DNA of 37,741 nucleotides from a virus. Made by a program: the position numbers and the translations under genes. Where the stretch lies: the IMG/VR virus record IMGVR_UViG_3300025141_000296, positions 1-37,741 of that record, one strand, 5' to 3'. Position 1 is the stretch's first letter. Every line of letters starts with the position of its first letter. Shown here piece by piece: positions 10,333 through 37,541 of the stretch. The notes under the pieces were generated by a model. It was not told the origin of the DNA. It made no database searches and saw only the letters and a list, made by a program, of their open reading frames with translations.

Positions 10333-13300
10333 TTATAAACCACTTCCTATTCCTCCCAAAGGTCTTGACGTATATGGTGAATAAAATGTTGTTTTATCCA
10401 TAGTAAACGATATGTATTTACTACTTCTTTCTGTTTTTATTTCTTTACCATTTAATAAAGGGTAGTATCTCCTACTTTCTAAATTATATGAATAAGTACC
10501 AGGGTTAGGCACAGTTACAAAAAATGTTGTATTTACAGTACCATCTTCTGTTGTTTTAAAGGTGGTTAATTCCTCTTGTACTATATTTCCGTCACTATCA
10601 TAAACAACTAACTTAATCTCTTCTTTCAACCCTAATTTCTTACTTAATCCAACCTTTATTCTTGGTTCTTTTGTACTAGCCAACCCAACTAAATTATATT
10701 GTGTTATATAATACATTACAATACTATCAGCAGAAGTAAAGTCGGGTGCCCCACCTACTGTATATGTTAAAAATTGTATTTTGCTTTCACCAACCCGTAC
10801 AAAATCTACATTTTCTGTTAACATTTGGCCATTAAGGGCAAGAGAAATAGTACCAACAGCTGGATAATCTAAATTAATATAATAATTTGCAGCATCTTTA
10901 TACATAATAGTTTCGGAATTTGTATTAAGTGTCCCAACAGTTATATTTTGATAATGATAACTTTTATTGGTGCTTCTGGGGTATATGACTTGAACGATAT
11001 CTCCATTAATTACTGTTTGTGGCTTAAGTATTAATCTATTATCACTAAAATAATATTCCCCCTTAACCCAAGTTAATGCACCTGGATATGAGTTATCGGG
11101 TTGGCTATCAGATTGTGCTAACAACAAACCATTAACATATACCTGAATATTTGCAGTTTGAGGTGGGTAGGGTAAAGTTAAAGCTGAATAAGTAAATGCA
11201 CTTTTTACTCCGCTATGAGAAGGTACTCCATCTACAATAGTTTTTTTAGTTGTAAAAAGTAATTGTATATTTTTATTATTTTTAAAATTAATACCTACAT
11301 TGTTTAGAATTGGTTCTCCAGGTGGTTCTACTACTACCATATAATAGTCTTTACCTTTATTAAAAGAAACACCATTTGTATTATCAGTTGTATCTACCCA
11401 TACAGGGTCTTTAGTTGTTTTATCTTTAAAAATAAATGAAGGTTTAACTATATACTGCCAAGAACTTCCTGTTGGTAGTCCGGATAAAGGTATGTTTGTT
11501 GTAGCACTTAGGGCTATTCCTTTTTTTCTAAGTTGTAATGAAGAAATCTCACTCATGGTATTAAAAAGGTAACTATAGTTTGGTTTTATGTTGAAGTTGC
11601 TTTGTTCGTGGTCGTACGTGTGTACATCTAATTTTAAATAACTCTGATTTAATAGTAGGTCTGATGTATCACCTGAGGTGTATGCAGTAATGATGGGTGT
11701 ATTTCCACTGTATCCTGATAAATTTATAATTTTAATATCCTCTATCTTGGTGGAATACTTAGATAGTCCCCCTAAAACAGTTATAGGTTCTTTAAATGTT
11801 TGTATAGTTGCTGTCAATCGTGGTTTTACTAATGGTATAGTAAGTTCCGACTCACATCTGGGGTTATAGTCACAATTTTTTGTTTCTCTTATATTATTAT
11901 TACCAAATAATTGTAATAAAGATTTAGAGTCCTGATTATCTGGGTTATACTCAACCGTTTGTGTTAATGTTATTGCTGAAGAATTAGCTATAAGTTGTGG
12001 ATTACCTAGTGACATATTATAGTTAGCTCCTGTACCAGTAAAGCCCATACCGTATACCATTCCAAACGGTTGATTTACCATATATCCTACTCTAGTTCCT
12101 CCTAAAAATCTTTGTAATTCTGTACCTGTTACCCAATCAGGAGCACTGTGTGTTGAGCCTGACCATGTGGAACTATCATTTAAATTAAAATTAATTTCAT
12201 ATAAGGCGTTAAACGGGTTATCATCACCACTATCCAATGTTGCATTTGTAGATGTAGCAATACTATTATCACCCATAGTATCCGTCATCTTTATATTAAA
12301 ATACTCTCCCTGTGACCCACTTCTAGTAACCCTTACCTTTAAACACCCTTGAGTTATAATACTACTTTCACAGTCCCATGGGCTACAATGTGTCCCACTA
12401 ATTAAATCTCTAGCCCCATTTGTTAATACAATAGAATCAAATTCTTTATATGTTGTTGTTATAAATTGTTGTTCTCCTTCTGATAAGGTAGCTTCATAAT
12501 CTGAAATTAGTTGTAGAAGTATTTGGTTATATATCTCCATAAAAATTGCAGTTCCACTTAATATTTCAAAAATGCCATCATGCGAACCTCCTCCTTCATC
12601 TGTTTGTCCGTCTCCACCATCTACCGTTTCATCACCATCTTCAGAGCCTCCAACTAATGTGTTATATTCTTCTGGATATTCATGTTGGAATTGAGATATG
12701 GCTGATTGTTTAGCCTCTGCCACTAATGCTTGTATAGCATCGTCATCAGACTCTTCCGGATTTCCTTGAATTATAGTCTCTCCATAAGCATCTCTTTGGA
12801 AAGCTCTTGCGTTTTGTCCTCTATTAAAACTTACTGTCGCACCACTACATGTTATAAAATCAAGTGTTAGATAATGAGTAGCCCCACTTTCTCCATAGGT
12901 TCCATAATTGTCTCTAAAGTAAGCAAGTACAATTGATGCTGTACTTTGTGTATTACCACTACCTCTCATAAAAATATCATGGGTATAATCCAAATAACTA
13001 CATGGTGATATATAACTAGCTTGTTGTGGGTCCCCAGAAATACTCGAACCACCTAATTTAACCGTACTCTGAAGATAATTAGTTTGTCTTCCAGCGTCAC
13101 AATATTCTTCAGCAGTTTGAACTTCATTTGCAGCATTCGTAACCCAAAAAGTACCATCTTGTTCAATCATTTTCATCTCAAAAGTTGTTGGTTTTTGAGT
13201 TATGATTTCAGATGATACTGGGTCACCTTTGGCATCTCTGTCCGCGGTTGGATTAAATGTAATCCACCCATAGTCATTAACTGTGGTCCCAGTTGTTGTT

Positions 13301-14322
13301 TCCCAGACAAAAAACTTATTAAGATATCTATGATAATAATATGTACCTCTAAAGTTAGCTGCTTGTGCGTTTCCAGCTGCAATGGTAGCACCAGTTAAAT
13401 CATAAGCAGTAAGTGCTACAATAGGGTCTGTATTAGGTCCTCTCGGACCACAATTCCATCCTTCTTGACAATCGCTTGACCCACTAACTCCTAAATACCA
13501 GTTTCTATTGGTGTCTGTTGTTCTTCCTGTATTTGGGTTCGATATTGGGTAGTCTAAAATACCGGTAGTACTATCTCCAGTAAAAAACCAATGACCATTT
13601 GTGTCTAAAACATGCCCCCAGTTATATAATCCAGTTGTGTAAATATCAGCGGTGTGACCCACATAATAATCACCCGCCGCAAAGTGAGAGTTCTTAGTCC
13701 AGTTTGATGTTATTGCTGAAAATGGTGTAGCTGTAGATGCTGATTTAGTATAACTAGTTGCCGTACATACACTATCTGTTACTAAAAACTTTCTAACTAA
13801 ACTTTCTTGCCTACCAATGGTTAGTGTGTACTCACCATTAGGTAATTTTTTAAATACTTGTGGTGTTACTGTATCTGCAGTACTAACAAGTTTGGATTCA
13901 AATAGTGTACCATTTCTATATAATGAATAATTTAATGTAGTCGCTGACTGATTGAAATTGTATAAAGAAGATGTTGATGCATTCTGTACCGTAACTTCAC
14001 AAAACAAATTAGGATTTGTTACACATGAATATGAAGTAACTGAAGCATTAAATGTTGGTAGTGTGTAAGCGGATATAGCAACAACAGTACTTCCAGTTAC
14101 TGAAGCAGAATCAGTTATTGTAGCTTCATAGACTCCCTCTGCTAAATTATATAGGTCCCATTGAGTTGAGGTGAATCCATTGGAGATATAATTTAGGTTT
14201 GCTCCACTCCAACTAACGGTATAAGGGCCTGAACCACCACTTACATTCACAACATCTATTTCACCAAGAGTTTGTCCTGATGTTGTAGGTGTTACATTAT
14301 ATTCACTAAGAAATATACTCAT
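10333..14322 (-). CDS. Giant virion protein with SprB-like N-terminal repeat and fibre-like C-terminal repeats (1329 aa)
   Basis: A 1329-residue protein, the largest in the window. Residues about 5-85 form a beta-sandwich of the SprB-repeat type: GGSGPYTVSWSGA, then LYNLAEGVYEATITDSASV. This family is characteristic of Bacteroidota adhesins. A second Ig-like unit follows (about 87-185, with LPNGEYTLTIG). An acidic Gly-rich linker lies near 557-580. Near the C-terminus two units with the pattern V-x-V/L-N-G-x-x-L ... G/D-x-I/V-x-x-x-Y (about 1057-1116 and 1152-1210) resemble the repeat units of phage tail fibres. No enzymatic motif was seen. It is probably an extended surface-exposed tail or baseplate protein. 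Gaps to both neighbours are short (20 and 47 nt), so it belongs to the same operon. Confidence 0.72.
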   Translation of the reverse strand: MSIFLSEYNVTPTTSGQTLGEIDVVNVSGGSGPYTVSWSGANLNYISNGFTSTQWDLYNLAEGVYEATITDSASVTGSTVVAISAYTLPTFNASVTSYSCVTNPNLFCEVTVQNASTSSLYNFNQSATTLNYSLYRNGTLFESKLVSTADTVTPQVFKKLPNGEYTLTIGRQESLVRKFLVTDSVCTATSYTKSASTATPFSAITSNWTKNSHFAAGDYYVGHTADIYTTGLYNWGHVLDTNGHWFFTGDSTTGILDYPISNPNTGRTTDTNRNWYLGVSGSSDCQEGWNCGPRGPNTDPIVALTAYDLTGATIAAGNAQAANFRGTYYYHRYLNKFFVWETTTGTTVNDYGWITFNPTADRDAKGDPVSSEIITQKPTTFEMKMIEQDGTFWVTNAANEVQTAEEYCDAGRQTNYLQSTVKLGGSSISGDPQQASYISPCSYLDYTHDIFMRGSGNTQSTASIVLAYFRDNYGTYGESGATHYLTLDFITCSGATVSFNRGQNARAFQRDAYGETIIQGNPEESDDDAIQALVAEAKQSAISQFQHEYPEEYNTLVGGSEDGDETVDGGDGQTDEGGGSHDGIFEILSGTAIFMEIYNQILLQLISDYEATLSEGEQQFITTTYKEFDSIVLTNGARDLISGTHCSPWDCESSIITQGCLKVRVTRSGSQGEYFNIKMTDTMGDNSIATSTNATLDSGDDNPFNALYEINFNLNDSSTWSGSTHSAPDWVTGTELQRFLGGTRVGYMVNQPFGMVYGMGFTGTGANYNMSLGNPQLIANSSAITLTQTVEYNPDNQDSKSLLQLFGNNNIRETKNCDYNPRCESELTIPLVKPRLTATIQTFKEPITVLGGLSKYSTKIEDIKIINLSGYSGNTPIITAYTSGDTSDLLLNQSYLKLDVHTYDHEQSNFNIKPNYSYLFNTMSEISSLQLRKKGIALSATTNIPLSGLPTGSSWQYIVKPSFIFKDKTTKDPVWVDTTDNTNGVSFNKGKDYYMVVVEPPGEPILNNVGINFKNNKNIQLLFTTKKTIVDGVPSHSGVKSAFTYSALTLPYPPQTANIQVYVNGLLLAQSDSQPDNSYPGALTWVKGEYYFSDNRLILKPQTVINGDIVQVIYPRSTNKSYHYQNITVGTLNTNSETIMYKDAANYYINLDYPAVGTISLALNGQMLTENVDFVRVGESKIQFLTYTVGGAPDFTSADSIVMYYITQYNLVGLASTKEPRIKVGLSKKLGLKEEIKLVVYDSDGNIVQEELTTFKTTEDGTVNTTFFVTVPNPGTYSYNLESRRYYPLLNGKEIKTERSSKYISFTMDKTTFYSPYTSRPLGGIGSGL

Positions 14323-17993: not shown

Positions 17994-20900
17994 TTAATCT
18001 ACGTTTAAATTTATTGGGTTCTTGGTTTGTTTTCCATTTTCTAATCTAAAAGCGTATCCCCAAGGTTCTTTTTTATTTTTACTTAATGGTAATGCTCTTT
18101 TTATTCTAAACATGATATCATTATTCATTGTACTAAGTATATCATATGCTCCATTTATTGTGGAGTCATTACTTGCGAATTTTTCGGTAATTAAATTTAT
18201 AGAAGTGTTAACCCCTGGATTACTAGTGGTAGCTGAAACACCATTATGATATAAAAATGAAGGCCATACTGATTTACAAGTCCCACTAAATGGTCTCATT
18301 TTTAAAACCATGCTATCTTCCGGTAAACTACAACAAGTACATGGTTGTGAAATCGTAGTAGAGTCTACTGTGCTTATATCACTAGAGGTACTACCTGTAT
18401 TCTCACAACCATTAGAACATGTAGAACCAGTTCTCGGGTCAGTTACACCAACTACATTCCCACAACGTGAAGAAGCACAAGCTGCTTCCCTATTATAGGA
18501 ACAAGTCCCATCATTTCCAGTAGCTAGTGGGTTAAAGTTGTCAGCTCCTGGGTCTGTACACCCTAAAACTTGACCTGATTTAGTAAATCCTGGTAATGGA
18601 AAAGTAGGGTAGTGTTTATATACGAATTTATCTCTATGAAAAACTGAATTTTCTATCTTTAAACCTCCTTGCCATAATGTAGTTGCTGGAACTAGTTGTT
18701 CTATAAGTCTAATCCAATAGGTTCCTAGACTCTGTGCATAATCTACCATTTTCTGGTATGTATATTTATTATTTTCACCACAAGATTGTGCTAAATAATC
18801 TAAATATAATTTTTGTAGTAATGGATATCCACCTGTTTTTCCATCGTCTATTGTTTGTCTATTTCTTACATTAATAAATGTTTTCCAGAATTTATTTGTG
18901 AATTCTTTAAATGAATAATCTTTACCATTTATCAAAGTGACTGTTTCGTCCACCCCACCTTTTTGTGGATATGGTAAAGGTAAGGGACCACCACTAAAAG
19001 GACACCCACTTAACACAGATTGGTTCCAAAAATCATACGTTAAAGCTTGTCCAACATTTAAAAAAGCATCTACATTTTTAACATTTATAACATACCTTTC
19101 ATCGTGGGTATGATAAGAAGCGTATCTTATACCTTCAAAATTGTATTTCCTATCTTCATTTCTACTATCTATTTTAACCCAAGATTTTTTATCATCTACT
19201 ATTGGGGTTAAATCAAACCCCCATTTCATATATGGAAATTTTCTAAATCTTTCTAAATATGGTGCCCCTGGGTCATTAGAATTTACATTAGGTGGTAGAT
19301 TACCAAAAAACCCACCCCAACTAAATTGGTTAAACTTGGTCACCACATTTGGATTACATCCCGATAAAACTGAATTATCTAAGTCTATTATTATGTCTCC
19401 GTGGTGTTCTTCGGTTTCTTCAAACCATCCTGCACCTCTCTGAAAATAGTAGTTAGATGTTTCTCTCGGTGCTTTAGGATATCCTTGTTCATCGATTGGG
19501 TAGTCATCTCTTACAAAATTATGTGTCTGTGTAGTACTACTTAAAATTGTTTGACCGTAAGCTCCATAATTTGGGTCGAAAACGTATTGTTGTGTTGTTA
19601 CTACCCCACCAGATATATTTTTAAAATCACTATAAAATCCTTCTTTATCACAATAACACCCTAATTCTACTAAAAGTTCTTGTATTTCTTGTTGTGCGTC
19701 ATTAGTTGTGTTAGTAGTGCTGGTTTTATTGAGTTTCTTAAGTGATATGTTTTCTTCATTTATTCTACTCTCCTGTTCTAAATCTGCTGTATTACCGCGT
19801 GTACCGTTAACTGGAAATTGCGTTGTGTTTCGGAGTTTTGGGTCGCCGTTTGGACCCCCAAACCCTCTTTCACACCTTCCATCGACCGGGTCCCAGAACA
19901 TTCCTTGTGGACATGGTTGTGGTGGACCTCCAGGATTAGTTCCACTGTTTAATAAAGCAAAAAGTTTATGACAAACTTCGTCATCCTTTATCTCATTCTG
20001 ACAACCTACCTTAACCCAATTATCTGCTAAAACCACATACTCATTAAACTCAACTAACGCTTCAGGTGCACCTATAAATCTAAATAAAAATTCTATAGCT
20101 TTTCTAGTACCTTTAGATTTAAAAAGATACGCTGTATTCATTAAAATTCTTCTATAAATTTCTATATCTAACTCTGCTGGTGTTGAACCTATTGATTCAC
20201 CGGAATATACTGGTTCGTATCTATCTAATATTGTATCTAAAAATCTTTCTTTTGTTAGGGTTGATGGGGTTTTCCAACCTAACATTTTTGCAAAATTTCT
20301 AAGTAGCTGGTTTGGTACATTATTCTTAGAATCATAGGTTACATTATTCATATAAGCAATCCCATCAATAAATTTTTTAACGTCGTCAAAACTTCTACCG
20401 TAAATTTGTAAAGTTTTTTCTACTTTTCTATCACCACTATCAAAATCTTTTAAAGCTCCAGTTGTTAGAAATCTTGATACTAAATTTGTTTTATAATCAT
20501 CTAGTTCGTCTCCTAGGTCAACTAATCTCTGTAAATAATTTGTATATTTCTCTGTTGTAACATCTATATTCCATAAATCTTGTTTTTCCCAAATAATGTC
20601 TTCTTTTAAAGTAAAATTTTGTCCACCTTCTGTTTGTCGGGGTAAACTAATTTCGGCTTTATATTGGGGCACACTTTTTTGATTTAATAAGAATTTTTCT
20701 ACGTGTTCAAAATTATCAAATTGTGTTTGTGTTTCTAATCGATTAGGTTTTAAATAAAATTCAGTTGTAGTAGAGGTAGCTGTGGCCCCAAAAGGTGAAC
20801 CTGAAATGGTTAGAGTTAACCCTGTAGTGGTCTCATCTATAGGTGTATAATCAAGAATTTTATATTGTGTATTCCCACTACCACTAAAACTTAAAACATA

Positions 20901-21551
20901 TCTACTATATTCTGATGAAAAATTCCTTAATGGTGATATTTTACCAACTTGTGCCTTAACACTTATAGTATCTATGGTATCTGTTGTTGGGTCGTCTATT
21001 AAATAATTTGTTGTCAGTGACCCTTCTATTCCAATTTCACCATCAGTAGTAATTTCTATATCAAACGGATTAGATATATTAAATTTTGATATTGTAATAG
21101 TGGTTCTATCGTAGGTGGGGTCGTAGTTGATACTTTCTGCTGTATTACCCGTAGTATGGTAGATACTATTTACACCATTACAGTATAAAGCTGCTGGAAA
21201 AAAATTAACTATTTGTTGTGCTGCAACCCGTAACCTTTCTTTTAATGACCCATATAATACAAGGTTACTTATATCACTATAATCATAATTAAAATCTACT
21301 AATAAGCTATAATTTAAAGCTTGACGGGATAAGTTCGTATCCCCAGCATCCAATTGTTCTAAAGTTATAGGTCCTGAAAACCCACCTAAATCAAAAGATA
21401 TATTTCTTTTCGAATCAGAACTATCTGATATCGAGAAATTACCTAGTGTCATTTGAGGGGAACCATCCGTAATCTGCATTCCTACAAGATTATCACTGAA
21501 GGTTCCTCTACCATTACCTGGTGCTGGTGGATAATAGAACTTTTTTGCCAT
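17994..21551 (-). CDS. Large baseplate/tail protein with internal GCTDP module (1185 aa)
   Basis: An 1185-residue protein. Residues about 370-510 are helical and contain RFLTTGALKDFDSGD, FAKMLGW and AYLFKSKGTRKAIEFLFRFIGAPEAL. The SKGT-R-x-x-I-x-x-L-x-x-x-x-G pattern occurs in phage tail protein I-like and large baseplate proteins. A cysteine hairpin (about 542-567, with FWDPVDGRCERG) follows. Residues about 935-985 carry WIRLIEQLVPATTLWQGG, a block I associate with large phage structural proteins. Directly after it, at 997-1020, sits one GCTDPGADNFNP...GTCSY repeat of the type seen in Bacteroidota secreted proteins. Together these suggest a baseplate scaffold bearing an exposed adhesive module. 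Its first ATG overlaps the upstream stop by 1 nt (TAATG). Confidence 0.75.
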   Translation of the reverse strand: MAKKFYYPPAPGNGRGTFSDNLVGMQITDGSPQMTLGNFSISDSSDSKRNISFDLGGFSGPITLEQLDAGDTNLSRQALNYSLLVDFNYDYSDISNLVLYGSLKERLRVAAQQIVNFFPAALYCNGVNSIYHTTGNTAESINYDPTYDRTTITISKFNISNPFDIEITTDGEIGIEGSLTTNYLIDDPTTDTIDTISVKAQVGKISPLRNFSSEYSRYVLSFSGSGNTQYKILDYTPIDETTTGLTLTISGSPFGATATSTTTEFYLKPNRLETQTQFDNFEHVEKFLLNQKSVPQYKAEISLPRQTEGGQNFTLKEDIIWEKQDLWNIDVTTEKYTNYLQRLVDLGDELDDYKTNLVSRFLTTGALKDFDSGDRKVEKTLQIYGRSFDDVKKFIDGIAYMNNVTYDSKNNVPNQLLRNFAKMLGWKTPSTLTKERFLDTILDRYEPVYSGESIGSTPAELDIEIYRRILMNTAYLFKSKGTRKAIEFLFRFIGAPEALVEFNEYVVLADNWVKVGCQNEIKDDEVCHKLFALLNSGTNPGGPPQPCPQGMFWDPVDGRCERGFGGPNGDPKLRNTTQFPVNGTRGNTADLEQESRINEENISLKKLNKTSTTNTTNDAQQEIQELLVELGCYCDKEGFYSDFKNISGGVVTTQQYVFDPNYGAYGQTILSSTTQTHNFVRDDYPIDEQGYPKAPRETSNYYFQRGAGWFEETEEHHGDIIIDLDNSVLSGCNPNVVTKFNQFSWGGFFGNLPPNVNSNDPGAPYLERFRKFPYMKWGFDLTPIVDDKKSWVKIDSRNEDRKYNFEGIRYASYHTHDERYVINVKNVDAFLNVGQALTYDFWNQSVLSGCPFSGGPLPLPYPQKGGVDETVTLINGKDYSFKEFTNKFWKTFINVRNRQTIDDGKTGGYPLLQKLYLDYLAQSCGENNKYTYQKMVDYAQSLGTYWIRLIEQLVPATTLWQGGLKIENSVFHRDKFVYKHYPTFPLPGFTKSGQVLGCTDPGADNFNPLATGNDGTCSYNREAACASSRCGNVVGVTDPRTGSTCSNGCENTGSTSSDISTVDSTTISQPCTCCSLPEDSMVLKMRPFSGTCKSVWPSFLYHNGVSATTSNPGVNTSINLITEKFASNDSTINGAYDILSTMNNDIMFRIKRALPLSKNKKEPWGYAFRLENGKQTKNPINLNVD

Positions 21552-22495
21552 TACTGATTAATTATTGTACTAAATTGTTTACTAAAATCTATTGAGTTTC
21601 CTCTATCTTGTCTAACTTCAAATAATTGTTCATCAAACTCATCTCTTATTTCAAATAAATTATATTGTTTATAAATGTTATTAACACCAGATAAATCATA
21701 TAAAGTGTAAATTCCATCATCTATAGACTTAGTCTGATTACCATATAAGGCTATAGCCAACGTTTCAAAATCATGGTCTACCATCTCCACATCTAAAACT
21801 ATAGGATTAAAATAGGTATTAGTTGCTATAATATCTTGACCTGCATTCCCTATAAATGGAATAGCATTTGGTTGATTTGTTGGTGCACTTGTTGGAGATA
21901 ATGTACAAAATACCATGTTAGATGGTGAATCTGTATAAACATATCTTGATGATGTCTTGTTAGCGTTAGCGGAAGAATTAGGTTGTCTTTCACAATAGAA
22001 ACTTGACGTTACTACTCTAAAAAAGTTTGGTATTTTAGTACCGGTACCTCCTTGGGATGCCGCTTTATTTAGATACTCAATTCTATACCCCACCAAACCA
22101 TTATTTGTAAATCTATTTCTATAAGCAGTTGGGACTTGATTGATGTCAATCACAATACCCTTTACACTAGGTAGAGAAGACAGTATACCACAATCATATA
22201 TTTTTGTTCTAATTTCTATGGGTCTAATATATATGGTATATATTCCTTTATTAGCAAATATGTTTGATGGTAATGTTAGATTATATAATCCTCCTAAAAT
22301 TTCTGTACCTGAGTTAGCTCCATTTATAGATGTCGCTGCATTATGTACATATGGTTTTAACACTTGGGGTGCTGACAACCTACCTAACGTAAAAGTAGCT
22401 GTAGCGTCTCTAGTTGGTTGGTAATGGTACAGTATTTCTACATCTTCTGGTGAAACGTCTGCTGGTCTTTTTATTCCGTAATTTCCTAATGCCAT
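21551..22495 (-). CDS. Hypothetical structural protein (314 aa)
   Basis: A 314-residue protein with no domain I recognise. It begins MALGNYGIKRPADVSPEDVEILYHYQPTR, an N-terminal tail with alternating charge. The middle (GIYTIYIRPIEIRT, VKGIVIDINQVP, VGYRIEYLNK) looks like a beta-sandwich. The C-terminal segment, NLFEIRDEFDEQLFEVRQDRG, is a charged helix or strand repeat (EIRDEFD / EVRQDRG). No membrane segment or signal peptide. It lies between a cysteine-rich giant (5 nt gap) and the 1185-residue protein (1 nt overlap), so it is probably a connector or chaperone made in step with them. Function remains unknown. Confidence 0.65.
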   Translation of the reverse strand: MALGNYGIKRPADVSPEDVEILYHYQPTRDATATFTLGRLSAPQVLKPYVHNAATSINGANSGTEILGGLYNLTLPSNIFANKGIYTIYIRPIEIRTKIYDCGILSSLPSVKGIVIDINQVPTAYRNRFTNNGLVGYRIEYLNKAASQGGTGTKIPNFFRVVTSSFYCERQPNSSANANKTSSRYVYTDSPSNMVFCTLSPTSAPTNQPNAIPFIGNAGQDIIATNTYFNPIVLDVEMVDHDFETLAIALYGNQTKSIDDGIYTLYDLSGVNNIYKQYNLFEIRDEFDEQLFEVRQDRGNSIDFSKQFSTIINQ

Positions 22496-22500
22496 GTTTT

Positions 22501-25500
22501 TTAATCTTGTATTAAAATATTATAATAACCATAACCGTGAATATCTAATTCACCAATTGTGGTTATTTGAGATAACCTTTGTGGTCTCTCAAAAACAGAA
22601 ACCTTGCCTCTTTCAATAAATACATCGGAGCGCGTTTCTGGTTTTTGACAAACATTCATCAAAAACTCTTCTTTTGTTAATCTTGGTAAGCAGTCTTTTC
22701 TTCCTTCAGTTGGGTATATACAGGACCCATCGTCTATACAATCAAGAGAAACAAAATTTAGTGCCAATGGGTCTGTACAACAGTACGTATCCTCAATATC
22801 TGTACAACCGTCTTGTTGTGATGCTCCTTGTATTGGATTATAGTCTCCGTTACCACACCCTAAAGTTGTTAAAGTTCCATGGGTTGAGGTATCAATCTGT
22901 AATAGATTTATATCTGTAATCGCGTGTACAGTGGCTCCACAAGCATCATTAGGTAAGTTTGAAAGCGAGTTAGACCCGTACCAATTTCCATTCCACTTAA
23001 ATAAACCAAACAAATTATCTAAAGTAGGATTTTGTGTTACTTGTGTTTCGGACCAATTTGATGGGGAGGAAGTACTATGGTCCATAATAGCACCAATATT
23101 ATTGTTTTCAAATCGTCCCATTTTGCCATTTGATGGGAACATATCAAAATAAGTAATAATTAAATTACCAGTAAGTGGGTCAACCAAAATATCTCCTGTA
23201 GACTTACCTTGTTGTTGTGTAGCACCATCAACAGAAGGAAAAGCTGGATTTGGTAACATAAATAATTCTTGTGTAATACCTACTCCTATTGAAGGTGATG
23301 AAGTAGTGATATCAATTTGTAATACTTTTTCACCTGAAGAAATTAATGTCGTATCATCTTTTGCAACTAACCCATTACCTATAGTAAGGTCGATTGTTGG
23401 TATACCACTATGTGAGTCATATCCTCCTTGACATAATTCTGTAATATCTATATCTCTAACAAACGGTGGGTTAGTAAGTGGTACTGGTGAACCACCAACG
23501 GTTAAAGGGTTTGCGGTTAAATCTATTGCGTATTCTCTTATAATACCTAAAGGTGCACAATCTAAACCAGGTGTACATCCTGATGGGTAATTACTTTCCT
23601 TTATTTGTCCGTATGTTCCAGACATTGGGTCTTGGTCTACAACTTTACACGCGTATAACCATAAAAAATCTGCAGTATTTGCTATATCCCAAGATGCTGT
23701 ACCCCACGCCTGTGCTACATCACCTCCGAAAAATGTATCTCTATTAAAAGTTTCATCAAATTGTTCATCCTTAAATAAGAAATCCATATTATCTGGGTCT
23801 ACATCTGGGTCGTAACTATAAACGTTACCGTTATAATCATTTAAGAAAACAGCACATTCTTCTAGTGCTGCAGTTGCACAATAAGTATTACAATCACTTA
23901 AAGCGGTGCTACACGATGCAGCGTCGGTACAAGGACCAAATAAATCTGGGTCTAACCAATTATATGGTTGTACTTCTGCTGAAGCATAGATATCAATACA
24001 ACTATGTGTTGATGTTACTGGGTCCAGTTCACAAACATATCCACCTTCATAAGTACAACAACTAGTTATTGGGGTACATTGTTGATTTGCCGTTGGGTCA
24101 TAGTCTATTGCTGAAACACAATCTACACCTGGTGTACATCCTGGTGGGTAATTACTACAAAGTGATACACCCACACTGTTTGGACATAATTCTAAACCGC
24201 TAGGGCATTGAGCACTAACTAATGTTCCTACTGTTCCACAACTACCACCATCAGTACAACATCCTCTGTCCATACATTCTACATTTGTATATGTACAATT
24301 ATCACCACCAGGACAAGGCATATCTACATCTTTACCTTTTACCGTTAAAACATTATAAGGTGTTGGTGGACAAGACTCGTTATAATTATCAGCTGTTGGG
24401 TCGTCACATCCTGCATACTGACAACAATCATATTGTCCCCCACTTGTATTGGTTAGTGGTGATGTTGGTGTTCCTGGGAAATAACAACCATCAGCAGTTG
24501 CATCATAATTTTGTGCATCTAAATCTGTACAACCAATACGAAAACAACCGTCACCCCCTGTGTACCCACAATTAGGGTTTGGTGGTACTAACTGTGAACT
24601 ATTTGTACCGCCGGGTGGTGATATAATAGTGCCTGTACAATCTTGTGTGTAATTAACTACACAACCAATCGTACCTGCTGGCCAAGGTGTTGCTGGTCCT
24701 GAATTAAGGGTTGTACATACATTACTATCCCAACATGCACAATATTCACAACAACTCTTATCACCAGGGACAAAGATACCATTTACTATGCAACCTTCAT
24801 TGTTTAGAGAATCATAATTACATGCTGAAGTATCTGGACATCCAGGGTATACACAAATACTATTATTAGTTACGTTAGGACAACAGCAATTGGTTGTACA
24901 AGTAGCCAAATTAGGGTCACATGTAGCATAGTTATCACTACAAGGTCCCGGGCTAGAAAGAGTACCAATATAATTGTAAGCTAATGGGTCGGTACACCAT
25001 GGTATTGCGTTTATACAAGAACTGCAGTCAGAATGTATAGAAACTACAGGTTGTACATTACTACCAAAACTTTGGTTTTGTAAATCAACATATGGAACTT
25101 CACATGGACATGGTGAGTACCAAGCACCCTGACCCGCTATACCACACGAACATGCTGGTGGTGAATTACCACACGTACATTGTTGGGTTGCTGTATTGTC
25201 TATAAAAAACCCACTTACGTTGTTACCAAGTGGCCAAGAAAAATCAATACCAAATTCTACCGGACAAGTAGCTAAACCATCCCCAGTAGTACCATCCCAA
25301 TCATCCTCCGTATAAATAATTTCTATAACCTTTAAACAAGCAGTTATTTCACCTGTACCATTTAGGTCAATAACAATAAACTTACCAACACCCAAACATC
25401 CCGCAGCACCAATAGCTCCACCAGAACATCCCCCTACCGGTAAAAGACCATACAATTCACCACAACCCACACCACCACACCCACAAGGAGGTGATGGACA

Positions 25501-25731
25501 AGGATTAGCAGCAAATGGGTCTGTCATTAAAGAAGGGTCAAGAAGAAAACAACCAGTATCCATACCTCCCAACACACCTGAGGGTGCTGGTTGGGTTCCA
25601 CCCCAAACATCCATTGTTATACAACCTTGACTAACCCATCCTGGTGCTTTCATTTCTACAACAACAGCAATTCTATCCCCATTAGAGTTATATGGAAAAC
25701 TGGCTGGATATGGTCCTAAAAAATCTGGCAT
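22501..25731 (-). CDS. Giant cysteine-rich modular virion protein with GCTDP repeats and propeller-like region (1076 aa)
   Basis: A 1076-residue protein with about 78 cysteines by hand count (7%). Most lie in residues 37-630. Repeats of the form C-T/D-D-P-x-A-x-N-Y start at 246, 298, 401, 442 and 985, with a divergent copy at 531-552. The family is common in secreted Bacteroidota and algal proteins. Residues about 780-960 repeat 'hydrophobic strand, turn, W/Y-G' units (GDILVDPLTGNLIITYFD, GLFKWNGNWYG, LLQIDTSTHGTLTTLG), which resembles a beta-propeller. The C-terminus DVFIERGKVSVFERPQRL ... IGELDIHGYGYY looks like a docking tail, since it is charged and free of cysteines. No signal peptide is present, as expected for a virion protein. 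It is probably an exposed host-recognition protein. Confidence 0.75.
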   Translation of the reverse strand: MPDFLGPYPASFPYNSNGDRIAVVVEMKAPGWVSQGCITMDVWGGTQPAPSGVLGGMDTGCFLLDPSLMTDPFAANPCPSPPCGCGGVGCGELYGLLPVGGCSGGAIGAAGCLGVGKFIVIDLNGTGEITACLKVIEIIYTEDDWDGTTGDGLATCPVEFGIDFSWPLGNNVSGFFIDNTATQQCTCGNSPPACSCGIAGQGAWYSPCPCEVPYVDLQNQSFGSNVQPVVSIHSDCSSCINAIPWCTDPLAYNYIGTLSSPGPCSDNYATCDPNLATCTTNCCCPNVTNNSICVYPGCPDTSACNYDSLNNEGCIVNGIFVPGDKSCCEYCACWDSNVCTTLNSGPATPWPAGTIGCVVNYTQDCTGTIISPPGGTNSSQLVPPNPNCGYTGGDGCFRIGCTDLDAQNYDATADGCYFPGTPTSPLTNTSGGQYDCCQYAGCDDPTADNYNESCPPTPYNVLTVKGKDVDMPCPGGDNCTYTNVECMDRGCCTDGGSCGTVGTLVSAQCPSGLELCPNSVGVSLCSNYPPGCTPGVDCVSAIDYDPTANQQCTPITSCCTYEGGYVCELDPVTSTHSCIDIYASAEVQPYNWLDPDLFGPCTDAASCSTALSDCNTYCATAALEECAVFLNDYNGNVYSYDPDVDPDNMDFLFKDEQFDETFNRDTFFGGDVAQAWGTASWDIANTADFLWLYACKVVDQDPMSGTYGQIKESNYPSGCTPGLDCAPLGIIREYAIDLTANPLTVGGSPVPLTNPPFVRDIDITELCQGGYDSHSGIPTIDLTIGNGLVAKDDTTLISSGEKVLQIDITTSSPSIGVGITQELFMLPNPAFPSVDGATQQQGKSTGDILVDPLTGNLIITYFDMFPSNGKMGRFENNNIGAIMDHSTSSPSNWSETQVTQNPTLDNLFGLFKWNGNWYGSNSLSNLPNDACGATVHAITDINLLQIDTSTHGTLTTLGCGNGDYNPIQGASQQDGCTDIEDTYCCTDPLALNFVSLDCIDDGSCIYPTEGRKDCLPRLTKEEFLMNVCQKPETRSDVFIERGKVSVFERPQRLSQITTIGELDIHGYGYYNILIQD
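24382..24999 (-). repeat. Cluster of four GCTDPxAxNY-type protein repeats
   Basis: Within the 1076-residue protein, four copies begin at residues 245 (WCTDPLAYNY), 297 (GCPDTSACNY), 400 (GCTDLDAQNY) and 441 (GCDDPTADNY). A fifth lies apart at 984 (CCTDPLALNF, positions 22753-22782). Spacing is irregular (52, 103 and 41 residues), with other cysteine motifs between. Copies have diverged in codons, so this is an old protein-level repeat and not a recent DNA duplication. Confidence 0.75.
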
Positions 25732-25755: not shown

Positions 25756-28700
25756 TCATGGCGTACCACATGGTCTCCAACAACTATGAGGTACATCTGT
25801 CCTAGGAACTGTTGGTAATGTTGGTGGTGTTGCATTATATTGTGGAACTAAACAATTTAGTAAAGTACATGGATGAGTACCTTGACCTGGGTTGGTATAT
25901 GGAAAAGGAGCTCCTGGTTGCGCTTGATTCATATTCGGGTCTTCACACTCAGCAAGTACCCCTGGGTCAGAACAATCAATTTCATTTAGTGGCCACGGAA
26001 GTCCTGTTGGTGCGTTAGTAGTTGTATTATCACATACTGGTCTAGGGTCATACCAATATTTGTATTGGTCTGTAGCCTGGGATACAGCAGCAACAGCACC
26101 TATAACAACATCAAAGTGTTCATAAAAATCATTTGGGTTATATAGTTCTACAGGATAATCAGTATTATTTAAAGACTCTAAAGAAGTACAAGTTGTACAA
26201 CCACAACCTGTAGTTTGCCAATTATTAGATAATGGGTCTTGACACGCTTCTATACTGTAGTCATTACAACTCCAATCCTCTGCATTATTCCAAGTAATAT
26301 CAGTTCCAACATACCAATGGTAAGGATTTCCTGGGCTACCTAAATAAAGTTTATTATCGGGGTTTATCTGACCAGATGCGGTATCATTAACGGTAACTGG
26401 TGTACAAGTACCACCAATACAAACATGTACGGTTGGTACATGACACTCATCATTACACCCAATAGCATCAAATGTTGTAATTACACCACCACTATCAGTT
26501 TGTACAGCACCATTAACTAGTATGACATCAGAACAATAGTTAGTGTTTGGGGGTCCTGTTGTTGCATCTGTTTGAACACATATTCCAGACCCACTATCAC
26601 ATCCCCACGATAAACAGTTTTGTTCACAATCAACTTTATCGGTATACGCATTAGGGTCTGTACTATCTAATACTGCCATACAACGTTGTCCCCCAAATGA
26701 ACCAGCACCATAATTCGCGGATAGGTCAACAATCGTATTAGCTGCGTACATATCACACACACATTGCCAACTTAGAACACTTCCACAATTCTCTACGCAC
26801 TCAGTTGCGTTAGTGTATGGTGTGGAATGATTAGCTCCTGGAGGTTGTGAAGTACCTACAGATAATGCTGTACAAATTAAATTAACACACCACCAATCAA
26901 ACAGTTGATGGGTTCCTCCACAGGTAGCTTGACAAGTCGGTAAATCACCATAAAACCCACCACCCACAACTGGTTGACATGTAGATGTGGTAGCTGGTGC
27001 AGGGTCAGGAACACAATCATATCCAATTGTGGTATTTGTACAATTAGTAGTACAATCAACATATCCGGTTGGTCCACCATATATTGTTTCTCCGTTTGGT
27101 CCTGTACCGGCATTATAATAATTATGTGAGGGTGGTATCGGTGAACAAGTACCTTGTATTTCACACATCCATTGTATTTCCACACCTACTGGTGGGAGGC
27201 ACCCTATTGTACAATCCGCTAATGCGTTTGCTGTAGTTGGTGGAGTACCGACGTATGTCGCGTTATCATAATAAGCACCACTAGTTGGTAATATCTCTAA
27301 GCACAAACCTTGAATACAGTTATATCGTGATGGTAGTACTTCTATTTCTGTACATGAACCAAAACATAATCTCCAATGTGGAGAATTTACATCGTATCTA
27401 TTAGGTGCTGGTATTGTATCGTCTAATATTGAGATGGCGTAGAAACAACACCCGTCGTAACTAACATAATCACCTGGGTCATAACTTTCATTATCATCCC
27501 ACTCTCCTCTATCTGTATGAACAACTTGGGTACCATAACCACCTAAAAAATAGTATTGTGTGCCTTCACACAAATCACAAGCACCTTGTAATGCCATACC
27601 ACATTCTCTTGTTAAGAAATCTTCTTGTTCTAGTCCAGAGCCTGTAGTACTAAAAACGGTAACCCCATTTTCATGGTCTACTAATGTATAAACATCAGCA
27701 CCATTCGTGATAGTATAACCGGTAAACCCATCACCTGGTACACTATTATCAACATTATCAATAGTACCCCACAAATTTTCTACATAAGTACCATTAGGTA
27801 GTTGTACCTGGCCCCCAATATTAACAGTAGTTGGAGGCCCTATAGGTATACCATTTATAGCGGTAGTATTATAACCTGGTGGTAATCCTGGTGATGAAGA
27901 ACTACTATAAGATTGTAGAGATGATAACATACTATCTGTAATTCCTTGAATGGTATATGGTGTAGCTACGTAACTTGCGGTTACGTAAGAGTTTACTCCT
28001 AGGCCACCGTCTAGTGGTCCAAATTCAGAACCTTCATAATCCATACTTACTGGTGCACCACCACCTGGTGGTGTAAAGGTGTATGTTTGTGTTTGGTTAG
28101 GTACTGTGAACCAAATCTGGTCACCTGTTTGGAATGGTATTGTTATGTGATGTGATACTGATGTTATTCCCCACGGAGCTCGCATTTGTACAGTTACCGT
28201 AAAAGGACCTGAACTCATGTAAGAATGTGTGGTAGTTATTGTAGGAGCGTTAAGTAATGTGAGAGCAGTACCATCCCCCCAATCTACACTATATTCGATA
28301 CCCTCCAAATACTTATAGAACCCAAATTCAGTACTATTATTTAAACTTACAAGAAATGGGTTTACTGTATCTCCAGTAAGTAAAAAATTAGAAAAAGTAT
28401 CTTCTTGACCCATTTGCCCATCCCACATAGTATAATGGCCCATATCGTTAAAATCGTGGTCTAAAAATATAGTTAAAGTACTATCTTTACTTTCTCTTTG
28501 TGTTCTATTGCAGCATTCACAGTATTCGGTTGAGGTACTCGTTTGAGGGGATGGTGTTGTTTTTTTACTTAGAGGTCCAAGTTGTTTTTGTTGTGCCCCT
28601 GTTAGTGGGCATTGAGAACAGTATCTATTTTGTTCCTCAACACTCCAAGCATAAAATTCATCACAAGGACTTAAAATTAAACCGCAACAACTTTCCCCTG

Positions 28701-28905
28701 GATTAGGACAACAAACATTAATAGCACCATTAGCACAGTCTACACAAGCATCTATTTTATTTGTCATACTTAAATTAGTACAAGGTGTACAATCGTCTGG
28801 TAATGTAGGTCCACTATTTGTAATTTGTCTACTTGGTTTAGCACAACCTACTGAACTTATCCCAGGTATATGACCTGTCCATATTTTGTATTTATAAATG
28901 TCCAT
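25756..28905 (-). CDS. Giant cysteine-rich virion protein with PKD, carbohydrate-binding-like and C/C modules (1049 aa)
   Basis: A 1049-residue protein with about 62 cysteines by hand count. The order is as follows. N-terminal cysteine clusters span 21-132. A PKD-type domain spans about 195-258 (YSVDWGDGTAL with the WGDGT turn at 209-213, HSY at 227, then PFTVTVQM). A segment at about 465-514 matches the pattern of family 5/12 carbohydrate-binding modules (WDDNESYDPGDYVSYDG, then a closing W511). From 528 to about 835 come repeated modules 'W/Y-x-C-x(3-9)-C-x(n)-C-x(3)-C', as in WWCVNLIC ... ECVENC and YDCVPD ... CQATC. A Pro-rich, cysteine-containing C-terminus follows. These families bind sugars or mediate adhesion. 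A receptor-binding role is inference. The start overlaps the upstream stop by 1 nt (TAATG). Confidence 0.75.
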   Translation of the reverse strand: MDIYKYKIWTGHIPGISSVGCAKPSRQITNSGPTLPDDCTPCTNLSMTNKIDACVDCANGAINVCCPNPGESCCGLILSPCDEFYAWSVEEQNRYCSQCPLTGAQQKQLGPLSKKTTPSPQTSTSTEYCECCNRTQRESKDSTLTIFLDHDFNDMGHYTMWDGQMGQEDTFSNFLLTGDTVNPFLVSLNNSTEFGFYKYLEGIEYSVDWGDGTALTLLNAPTITTTHSYMSSGPFTVTVQMRAPWGITSVSHHITIPFQTGDQIWFTVPNQTQTYTFTPPGGGAPVSMDYEGSEFGPLDGGLGVNSYVTASYVATPYTIQGITDSMLSSLQSYSSSSSPGLPPGYNTTAINGIPIGPPTTVNIGGQVQLPNGTYVENLWGTIDNVDNSVPGDGFTGYTITNGADVYTLVDHENGVTVFSTTGSGLEQEDFLTRECGMALQGACDLCEGTQYYFLGGYGTQVVHTDRGEWDDNESYDPGDYVSYDGCCFYAISILDDTIPAPNRYDVNSPHWRLCFGSCTEIEVLPSRYNCIQGLCLEILPTSGAYYDNATYVGTPPTTANALADCTIGCLPPVGVEIQWMCEIQGTCSPIPPSHNYYNAGTGPNGETIYGGPTGYVDCTTNCTNTTIGYDCVPDPAPATTSTCQPVVGGGFYGDLPTCQATCGGTHQLFDWWCVNLICTALSVGTSQPPGANHSTPYTNATECVENCGSVLSWQCVCDMYAANTIVDLSANYGAGSFGGQRCMAVLDSTDPNAYTDKVDCEQNCLSWGCDSGSGICVQTDATTGPPNTNYCSDVILVNGAVQTDSGGVITTFDAIGCNDECHVPTVHVCIGGTCTPVTVNDTASGQINPDNKLYLGSPGNPYHWYVGTDITWNNAEDWSCNDYSIEACQDPLSNNWQTTGCGCTTCTSLESLNNTDYPVELYNPNDFYEHFDVVIGAVAAVSQATDQYKYWYDPRPVCDNTTTNAPTGLPWPLNEIDCSDPGVLAECEDPNMNQAQPGAPFPYTNPGQGTHPCTLLNCLVPQYNATPPTLPTVPRTDVPHSCWRPCGTP
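26440..27324 (-). repeat. Tandem cysteine modules (C-x-C ... C-x3-C) in the 1049-residue protein
   Basis: At least six consecutive units begin near residues 528, 579, 629, 671, 713 and 767, and a seventh starts near 828. Each starts with an aromatic residue just before a cysteine (YNC, WMC, YDC, WWC, WQC, WGC), has a second cysteine 2-13 residues on, and ends with C-x(3)-C after a variable Gly/Pro/Tyr-rich loop. Unit length varies from about 34 to 54 residues. Similar units occur in tandem in large Bacteroidota extracellular proteins. Confidence 0.7.
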
Positions 28906-35191: not shown

Positions 35192-37033
35192 TTATGAGAT
35201 GTTTGCCCGAGTTAATTGTTTAACCCGCACACGAATGTCAGTGTCGGGATATCTGATTTGTGGCATCTCATCTGGCATAAAGAATATTGTCTGGTCAGTA
35301 ATAGCTAATTGTCTTTGGGTTCCACTTATTAATGGTTGACTTATTAACGAGTTTGAGTACCCGTTACCTACCTCATTGAATAGTCTTATGTCTACGACAT
35401 TTAAGACACCTGGTTGTTCTGAAACTTTACCATATAATTCACTTAAATTTATTGTAAGACCTAATTCGTTAGCGTCTATATCAAAAAATTCTTTTACACT
35501 GTTTATTGCGTTAGTAACTACCTGTCCTTGGTTGGTGTCATTTGCAATTACTAGGTCTATATCAAAACTTAAATCTATTACTTTAGCCGATGAAATTTCT
35601 ATATAATCATTCAACATTCTATAGTTAGAGAGATATTCAGCTATATTATTTTTTAGTGTGCTACTTACACTAGATGTTAGAGTTCCGTCTGGGTTATAGG
35701 ATAAGACACTTACTTTTACTTTATTCTCAACTTCAGTAACACCAACCTTTGCGGCTGCACCGAATTTGGAAGGCATTGTTCTTACTCTCGCTACATAATC
35801 ATTTATAGTGACAGCTCTATTTTGTGCTGCAAAATTAAATGACACATAATTTCTAACTTCCTCTGTAGACATTTGGTCATCACCACCCAACGCAGATGTC
35901 ACATTATTAACTTTTAAACTACTAAAAACACTAGTATTTATACTAGATACTGGACCAGAAACAACAAAATCTATAGTACCTAAAGAATTTATGGCTCCAG
36001 CACCTAAATTAGAAGCTTTACCACCACCAACTCTATATTGAACGAATAAGGTCCTGTTGCCTTCTACCATAGAACCTAATGATATATTATTTATAACTTT
36101 GTTGGGCTGTACTTTAATATTAAACTTTGCGAATTCGTTTAGTAGTTGTTGTGAGTCACTATTTCCACTACCGAACGTTAAAAAGAAAAACCCTTCTGGT
36201 GTATATTCTGTAACAAATCTATTATCTGTTAATATATATTTCCCTACTTTTAACCCTGGTTCATCTGCTGGTGTAGATGGGTCTATTTCAAAAACTTCTG
36301 ATTCTGCTAAAGCTTGCATCTCATACCATTTATTATCTTTTGCGGTTATAAATTCTAAAGTAGACGGTAATGTTGTATAACCAAGACCTTCTTTTTCTAT
36401 AATAGAGGTAACACCTAAAACATTTCTCTCTGGTAAAAATATTTTTAAAAATGGTTTATTATCAATATCTGTTATTTCTTTTTTAAATACTTTTGTTACA
36501 CCATTAACCACCACTTCTCTTTTGGTTATGGTATAATTTTGAATTATTCCGTTAGAGTTAAAATTTGGTACTTTTGTTCTGTTTGGTGTTCCCTCTACTG
36601 AGTATGGTGAGGAGAAGTCACAATCATCTAATAATTCAAAAACTTGACCTCCTCCCCTAACTTGAGAGTTTCTTCTCATAAACCCTAAGTATCTATAGTC
36701 CTCTTTATCACCTAGTGCTGGGACAATGATAGATAAATCACAGAGTGTTATTGATGGTCTGTTCCCTGGTATCTTTAAACCATAGGTCCTAGCGATATTA
36801 AATAAGGAGCTTCTTTCTTGAGCATATTGTAATACCGTTTCTTGTAAGGTTCTATCAATAGAGTAGTGTAAGTTATCTGCTATTGCCGCATTTAAGTCTA
36901 GGAATACTGAATATATTGACGCGTCGTTTGAATTTTTTATTAAATTAGGGTAATATGTGTTTGTTAATCGAAGTAGTTCGTTTCTTAACCCTAAAAAATC
37001 TCTTTCTGTGTATGCTATTTTTTTCTCTGCCAT
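35192..37033 (-). CDS. gp6: Baseplate wedge protein, T4 gp6 / phage J-like family
   Basis: A 613-residue protein close in size to T4 gp6 (660). The N-terminus MAEKKIAYTERDFLGLRNEL and the next 90 residues (NDASIYSVFLDLNAAIADNLHYSIDRTLQET, ARTYGLKIPG) follow the typical start of gp6/J-like proteins. The later part (MSTEEVRNYVSFNFAAQNRAVTINDYVARV, then VSVLSYNPDGT and a C-terminal domain with EQPGVLNVVDIRLFNEVG) is the conserved J-like region. In T4, gp6 dimers form the inner ring of the baseplate that joins the wedges and drives the shape change on contraction. The gene starts 1 nt after the stop of the gp25-like gene, and the pairing of the two supports the call. Confidence 0.9.
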   Translation of the reverse strand: MAEKKIAYTERDFLGLRNELLRLTNTYYPNLIKNSNDASIYSVFLDLNAAIADNLHYSIDRTLQETVLQYAQERSSLFNIARTYGLKIPGNRPSITLCDLSIIVPALGDKEDYRYLGFMRRNSQVRGGGQVFELLDDCDFSSPYSVEGTPNRTKVPNFNSNGIIQNYTITKREVVVNGVTKVFKKEITDIDNKPFLKIFLPERNVLGVTSIIEKEGLGYTTLPSTLEFITAKDNKWYEMQALAESEVFEIDPSTPADEPGLKVGKYILTDNRFVTEYTPEGFFFLTFGSGNSDSQQLLNEFAKFNIKVQPNKVINNISLGSMVEGNRTLFVQYRVGGGKASNLGAGAINSLGTIDFVVSGPVSSINTSVFSSLKVNNVTSALGGDDQMSTEEVRNYVSFNFAAQNRAVTINDYVARVRTMPSKFGAAAKVGVTEVENKVKVSVLSYNPDGTLTSSVSSTLKNNIAEYLSNYRMLNDYIEISSAKVIDLSFDIDLVIANDTNQGQVVTNAINSVKEFFDIDANELGLTINLSELYGKVSEQPGVLNVVDIRLFNEVGNGYSNSLISQPLISGTQRQLAITDQTIFFMPDEMPQIRYPDTDIRVRVKQLTRANIS

Positions 37034-37034
37034 A

Positions 37035-37541
37035 TTATAAATTTATAATTATAAAATCTCTAACACCAAAGACATCATCTTTTATACTATAATCTATAAA
37101 AATCTTTGCCGTATACTCTTCAGTACCATCCCCAGCTACTCTATATATTCTATCGTCTAAATCATTATCTAAAGTATTATCTCTACTAACTAAAGATGGA
37201 TGATTTGAAGCTTTAACTTCTGCTTCTTTTTCTCTAGCGTCTTCTAGACTTTGGATTTTTATTTCATTTACAATGATATTAGGTATATATTTTCCTATAA
37301 CATCTCTTAGTTCTGAATCTATAGCTTTATAAGTTGATTTGTCCATGGGTTCAAATATGTACTCATACAACCTTGTACCAAAATCAGGTAAAAAATACCT
37401 AGAACCTTTTCTAGTTAGTATAAGGTGTGTTAAATCAGTTTTAATTTCCTCTGCTGGTGTAGTGGTGGTTTTCAAAAAGAAACCACTCTCACTATCGTTA
37501 AAAGGAAAAGCTATACCATATCTTGTTGATGCTATTGTCAT
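37035..37541 (-). CDS. gp25: Baseplate wedge protein, T4 gp25 / GpW family
   Basis: A 168-residue protein, slightly longer than T4 gp25 (132). The core is LILTRKGSRYFLPDFGTRLYEYIFEPMD followed by a helix (YKAIDSELRDVIGKYIPNI) and strands (VNEIKIQSLED). The R-x-G-x-R-x-x-x-P-x-F-G-T-x-L segment is the signature of the gp25 family; here its key residues are R and G of RKGSR and the DFGTRL block. gp25 resembles tail-tube initiation and sheath-handshake proteins, and binds gp6 and gp53 in the wedge. The C-terminal extension (about 125-168, YTAKIFIDYSIKDDVFGVRDF) adds strands. Spacing to the gp6-like gene is 1 nt, and to the truncated gene upstream 24 nt. The call is secure for family. The partner list is from T4. 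Confidence 0.93.
   Translation of the reverse strand: MTIASTRYGIAFPFNDSESGFFLKTTTTPAEEIKTDLTHLILTRKGSRYFLPDFGTRLYEYIFEPMDKSTYKAIDSELRDVIGKYIPNIIVNEIKIQSLEDAREKEAEVKASNHPSLVSRDNTLDNDLDDRIYRVAGDGTEEYTAKIFIDYSIKDDVFGVRDFIIINL

Follow-up and report, generated by a model that had tools for sequence, protein, structure and literature searches.

What does a protein this rich in cysteine do among the baseplate genes of a phage? The window examined here, a 37,741-base virus record from IMG/VR, carries on its minus strand an open reading frame (22501–25731, ATG start) encoding 1,076 amino acids, of which 78 (7.2%) are cysteines. An earlier note had described the product as a virion protein built from GCTDPxAxNY repeats and as a candidate recognition apparatus. 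Phages of marine Bacteroidota are abundant. We propose that the gene encodes a modular baseplate-operon adhesin, and consider it reasonably probable that this protein is a modular, C-terminally anchored receptor-binding decoration of a T4-type baseplate, the phage being most likely one of marine Bacteroidota.

The focal protein and its operon

The baseplate setting described in the earlier note is borne out. The wedge proteins gp25 (37035–37541; PF04965, 4e-12; PHROG_261) and gp6/J (35192–37033; PHROG_219, 1e-17) are encoded upstream on the same minus strand, as in a T4-type baseplate operon, and this synteny recurs in about 15 relatives. Indeed, about 15 divergent phages share the gene order gp25, gp6, 31654, 29863, 28905, CYS2 (25756), focal gene, 21551, 17994 and 14343, many of the records surveyed being fragments that show only part of it. 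The immediate partner, CYS2 (25756–28905, minus strand), encodes 1,049 amino acids with 62 cysteines and a conserved start, M(D/E)IYKYKIWTG. On the other side, and directly downstream of the focal gene wherever the neighbourhood could be read, lies a gene for a conserved 314-residue protein (21551–22495, minus strand; 82.9% mean identity in the clade). It is followed by a further baseplate-operon gene (17994–21551, minus strand), whose product holds the best GCTDP copy of the window, a full-length unit at residues 997–1019 (18495–18563; 28.5 bits) that is present in seven of seven orthologs. Residues ~350–500 of this last protein look like gp7/P2 gpI by eye only (KGTRKAIEFLFRFIGAP), and no Pfam or PHROG match was obtained.

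The focal gene is present in all eight members of the window clade. Its seven syntenic orthologs share 45–50% identity, and 43 of the 78 cysteines are invariant in the clade. Together with CYS2 (51% mean identity), the focal protein (54%) is the least conserved product of the operon, the four neighbours lying at 65–83%; within it, the C-terminal anchor is the most conserved part. Sequence searches with the protein or its alignment against Pfam, PHROGs, NCBIfam and the PDB gave no match, nor did a viral scan with its own peptides or tblastn searches of cultured phages with the focal, 17994 and 21551 proteins. By a crude hydrophobicity test the N-terminus is not hydrophobic, in agreement with the earlier statement that a signal peptide is absent, and no T9SS sorting domain (Por_Secre_tail or CHU_C) was matched in Pfam or NCBIfam.

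Viral contigs yielded more than 120 stretches with exact matches to GCTDPxAxNY, and a 24-position HMM was built from 529 units of viral contigs outside the window lineage, none of them from the window. The consensus reads G-C-T-D-P-x-A-x-N-Y-[ND]-P-x-A-N-x-D-D-G-S-C, with its two cysteines 19 apart. The focal protein scored 28 bits (E 4e-9 in a search of 54 ORFs) versus a maximum of 7.9 bits per sequence, and 5.3 bits per copy, in 500 shuffles of the same protein, so the repeat family is real above background. It was not found as a family in our Pfam, NCBIfam and PHROGs searches, and a literature search for the GCTDP string returned no relevant paper.

One full and four half copies were recovered, all scoring above every shuffle. 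The half copies lie in the cysteine-rich region (residues 241–600; 23932–25011, minus strand), where the unit is reduced to its first half: residues 246–254 (CTDPLAYNY; 24970–24996; 9.0 bits), 297–309 (GCPDTSACNYDSL; 24805–24843; 7.6 bits), 400–413 (GCTDLDAQNYDATA; 24493–24534; 12.3 bits) and 441–453 (GCDDPTADNYNES; 24373–24411; 10.2 bits), all on the minus strand. The full copy (residues 985–1007, CTDPLALNFVSLDCIDDGSCIYP; 22711–22779, minus strand; 28.0 bits) stands directly before the anchor. Where five clear copies and one divergent copy had been reported previously, five thus stand above chance, but the divergent one (residues 541–549, 2.1 bits) is at noise level; likewise, the range of residues 240–560 given for the repeats holds the four half copies but leaves out the strongest and only complete one.

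A conserved C-terminal module with changing partners

The end of the focal protein (residues 1014–1076; 22504–22692, minus strand) forms a conserved module that we propose to be a virion anchor. Its last ~60 residues read LTKEEFLMNV..ETRSDVFIERGKVSVFERPQRL...GELDIHGYGYYNI. Most tail fibres have the opposite polarity to that of the C-terminal anchor proposed here. Six close relatives were located through the 17994 protein and many more by way of gp6 and the anchor; the module was found in about 50 uncultured phages, and wherever the neighbourhood could be read the gene that bears it lies between the same two genes of the gp25/gp6 operon. No relatives of the focal protein, the anchor or the 21551 protein were found in cultured phages, where the anchor search gave only two insignificant matches in Gordonia phages (E 0.7).

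At 23 loci the whole gene consists of the module alone, a stand-alone protein of 73–77 amino acids encoded between CYS2 and the 21551 homolog, and at about 20 others the module is the C-terminus of proteins of 225–1,156 amino acids. The anchor is the only part common to all relatives. The N-terminal region (residues 1–240; 25012–25731, minus strand) is variable and, like the propeller described below, specific to its clade: profiles of the window N-terminus and head found no match outside their own clade, the former also when run over the other anchor proteins. The N-termini that precede the module in other clades are unrelated, and a GCTDP repeat almost always forms the junction: of 20 distinct long proteins, 18 have a copy starting 33–59 residues ahead of the anchor, one has a degenerate copy and one has none. 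Reduced and enlarged versions also occur. One protein of 225 amino acids (L398, 9518–10192) consists of three GCTDP copies and the anchor and nothing else; the two most distant phages have a single cysteine-free protein of 276–314 amino acids that ends in the module; and in another relative (G039) CYS2, GCTDP repeats and anchor are fused in one protein of 1,156 amino acids (CYS2 part, E 1e-31).

A tree was built on the adjacent 21551 protein from 48 anchor or compact loci, all syntenic. The anchor-only loci form one clade nested inside the long ones (one change, support 100/99), which indicates that the head was stripped once. In this clade the upstream CYS2 is enlarged to 2,440–2,991 amino acids with 7.4–8.6% cysteine, and the cysteine-rich mass therefore moves between the two genes. 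These patterns are consistent with an anchor that stays fixed, a joint made of GCTDP and heads that can be exchanged. A conserved module with an exchangeable distal part is the arrangement of receptor-binding and tail-fibre proteins, and the module would attach such a protein to the virion. Since the anchor was modelled with pLDDT below 50 (in the model of residues 595–1076) and matched no family, its proposed function is argued from genomics.

The same observations can be read differently, with the protein as a structural part of the baseplate or tail whose cysteine-rich mass provides stability or spacing, for example as a sheath or whisker-like decoration, and takes no part in receptor binding. 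The invariant cysteines of the clade would suit such a role, as would the anchor-only version, which shows that some phages can do without the head. We nevertheless regard it as unlikely: in the anchor-only clade the cysteine-rich mass reappears in CYS2, no part of the protein evolves faster or is replaced more often than the head, and the propeller fold predicted for the head typically serves in binding.

Distribution and origin of the GCTDP repeat

The repeat had been described as typical of secreted proteins of Bacteroidota, and this agrees with our searches. Among the 80 genome matches listed, counted by title, 64 are Bacteroidota MAGs (Flavobacteriales, Crocinitomicaceae, Saprospiraceae and others), the remainder coming from Neomarinimicrobiota, Poseidoniales, candidate phyla and others. 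Several of the repeat proteins carry T9SS sorting tags, and three repeat proteins (L246, L013 and L064) match the sorting domain. The repeat is likewise present in proteins of Synechococcus phages, whose hosts are not Bacteroidota; these proteins are annotated as virion structural or baseplate hub. Many aquatic microbes and their phages thus have the GCTDP module in common, in proteins exposed at the surface. In S-CAM1 (L368; NC_020837.1, 2420–5536) and S-CAM3 (L369; NC_031906.1, 3569–5119), GCTDP units go unremarked in the annotation of baseplate-hub or virion structural proteins. In addition, 31 GCTDP ORFs in viral contigs (L003–L122) match an iterated T9SS type A tag profile, although some of these contigs may be misclassified bacterial DNA.

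It could accordingly be supposed that the focal protein is a captured host surface protein acting as mimic or decoy, in which the repeats themselves do the recognizing. The prevalence of the repeat in Bacteroidota proteins, many of them T9SS-tagged, speaks for this idea, as does a 232-kb relative that encodes a T9SS-tagged protein with 17 GCTDP copies. We judge it distinctly improbable, because the focal gene lacks both a signal peptide and a T9SS tag, its GC3 (0.188) equals that of its neighbours and of the phage, and it is old in the lineage and found throughout the clade; the acquisition of host adhesin DNA suggested earlier is thus not indicated, at least as a recent capture. Mimicry of Bacteroidota hosts specifically is not needed either, since the same repeat is present in cyanophage virion proteins. 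Finally, the copies further inside the protein are cut short and the complete one is a joint beside the anchor, conserved where the head is replaced between clades, which argues against the repeats as the recognition element. Recognition thus survives from the earlier note as the best reading of the operon, the predicted propeller and the conserved C-terminal module, but not by way of the repeats.

Like the PHROG_2155-type virion structural proteins of cyanophages (S-CAM3, S-CAM4, S-RIM44, ACG-2014j and S-H9-2), the focal protein has GCTDP repeats in a variable N-terminal part followed by a conserved C-terminal part, but the anchor domains are unrelated and the hosts differ. It shares the repeat unit with T9SS-secreted proteins of Flavobacteriales and Crocinitomicaceae, from which it differs in lacking signal peptide and tag. 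Tandem BACON domains in tail proteins of crAss-like phages offer another case in which a surface module of Bacteroidota type forms repeats in proteins associated with a phage tail (PMC6949934); BACON, however, is an Ig-like domain of gut phages, whereas GCTDP is a 24-residue, two-cysteine unit of mainly marine and aquatic phages.

The host of the window phage is most likely a marine Bacteroidota, as suggested by the T9SS-tagged protein of the 232-kb relative and by the nearest cultured gp6 proteins, which include those of Flavobacterium phages. The closest of these belongs to the Immutovirus baseplate (Flavobacterium phage immuto; 27% identity), although the annotated genes that follow gp6 there differ in size and order. 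The tagged protein of the 232-kb relative (IMGVR_UViG_3300030329_004647; L246, 6047–9415; PF18962, 3e-10) is a secreted protein encoded near tail-spike-type genes, and this phage seems to export a surface protein of its own through the host T9SS. In the window itself, the N-terminus of the 10333–14322 protein shows similarity to the SprB repeat, a unit of the gliding adhesin of Bacteroidota (E 0.0024), more weakly in the L205 ortholog; this similarity was rejected as falling below the Pfam cut-off.

The predicted propeller and the proposed apparatus

A full-length AlphaFold model of the focal protein had a pLDDT of 32 and was discarded. An AF2 model of residues 595–1076, computed from a 32-row alignment, reached a pTM of 0.68, with pLDDT values of 80–93 over much of residues 622–978 (22798–23868, minus strand), which are all beta. 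Foldseek ranked BtuG-type surface lipoproteins of Bacteroides first (E 1e-4), and its matches, like those of VIA-align, were beta-propellers almost throughout; the VIA-align list has GH43 enzymes at the top (Z 13.7), nidogen at 12.2, and Kelch and LRP6 at 11–12; a BFVD fold search gave only weak, mixed matches. As little separates the best Z values and the TM-scores by query were low (0.2–0.3), we predict residues 622–978 to be a beta-propeller as a fold class, a call that does not extend to family, blade number or ligand. That the head is an enzyme, such as a GH43 glycoside hydrolase digesting host polysaccharide in the manner of a tail depolymerase, is the least probable alternative: GH43 enzymes do give the top Z (rmsd 3.8 Å over 243 residues), but at 6–13% identity and with no glycoside hydrolase match in Pfam, while the non-enzymatic propellers nidogen, LRP6 and Kelch follow within about 2 Z and Foldseek places the non-enzymatic BtuG lipoproteins first.

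The propeller fold is used by the receptor-binding proteins of phi11 and PRD1 (PMC4901313). The focal protein, whose head is predicted only, would resemble S. aureus phage phi11 Gp45 and PRD1 P2 in carrying a propeller on a stalk attached to baseplate or virion (PMC4901313). Unlike in phi11, with its N-terminal helical stem, the conserved module is C-terminal and the stalk is cysteine-rich and bears GCTDP units, and the searches showed no relationship in sequence. Modular decorations that bind receptors are a known kind of phage device; the anchor and the joint proposed here are undescribed.

In the receptor-binding reading that we prefer, the C-terminal ~60 residues would attach the focal protein to the baseplate, probably against the 21551–22495 protein, which is a possible docking partner of the anchor. 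The GCTDP repeat would serve as a disulfide-stapled joint or stalk unit just before it, and the propeller and the N-terminal cysteine-rich region would point outward and bind the cell surface, CYS2 making up the remaining half of this apparatus. Since virions assemble in the cytoplasm, which is reducing, the cysteines would pair after lysis. More tentatively, and with greater doubt than the reading itself, the two genes may make up a C-terminally anchored host-recognition apparatus of no known family, widespread in uncultured marine phages, in which a 60-residue anchor receives exchanged heads, the cysteine-rich mass shuttles between neighbours, and GCTDP units reduced in the cell become disulfide-locked in oxidising seawater.

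The whole looks like an exchangeable host-grabbing device, of which related viruses swap, shrink or enlarge all but the C-terminal clip. By one 60-residue signature the proposed recognition gene can be picked out in about 50 uncultured phages, among them those in which the head has been removed or moved to another gene, so that host-range prediction and head-exchange tests become possible. The GCTDP repeat, for its part, is a module common to secreted bacterial proteins and to virion proteins of cyanophages and, presumably, of Bacteroidota-type phages, and can be studied in both settings.

We note two further features around CYS2. The protein has repeats of its own (YxCV...C...C), its largest version reaching 2,991 amino acids (in L237), and a PKD-like stretch (E 0.0012) that was rejected as below the Pfam cut-off. 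In part of the anchor-only clade, an inserted gene of ~210 codons separates the giant CYS2 from the anchor-only gene (L236, 16342–16968; L237, 13932–14570).
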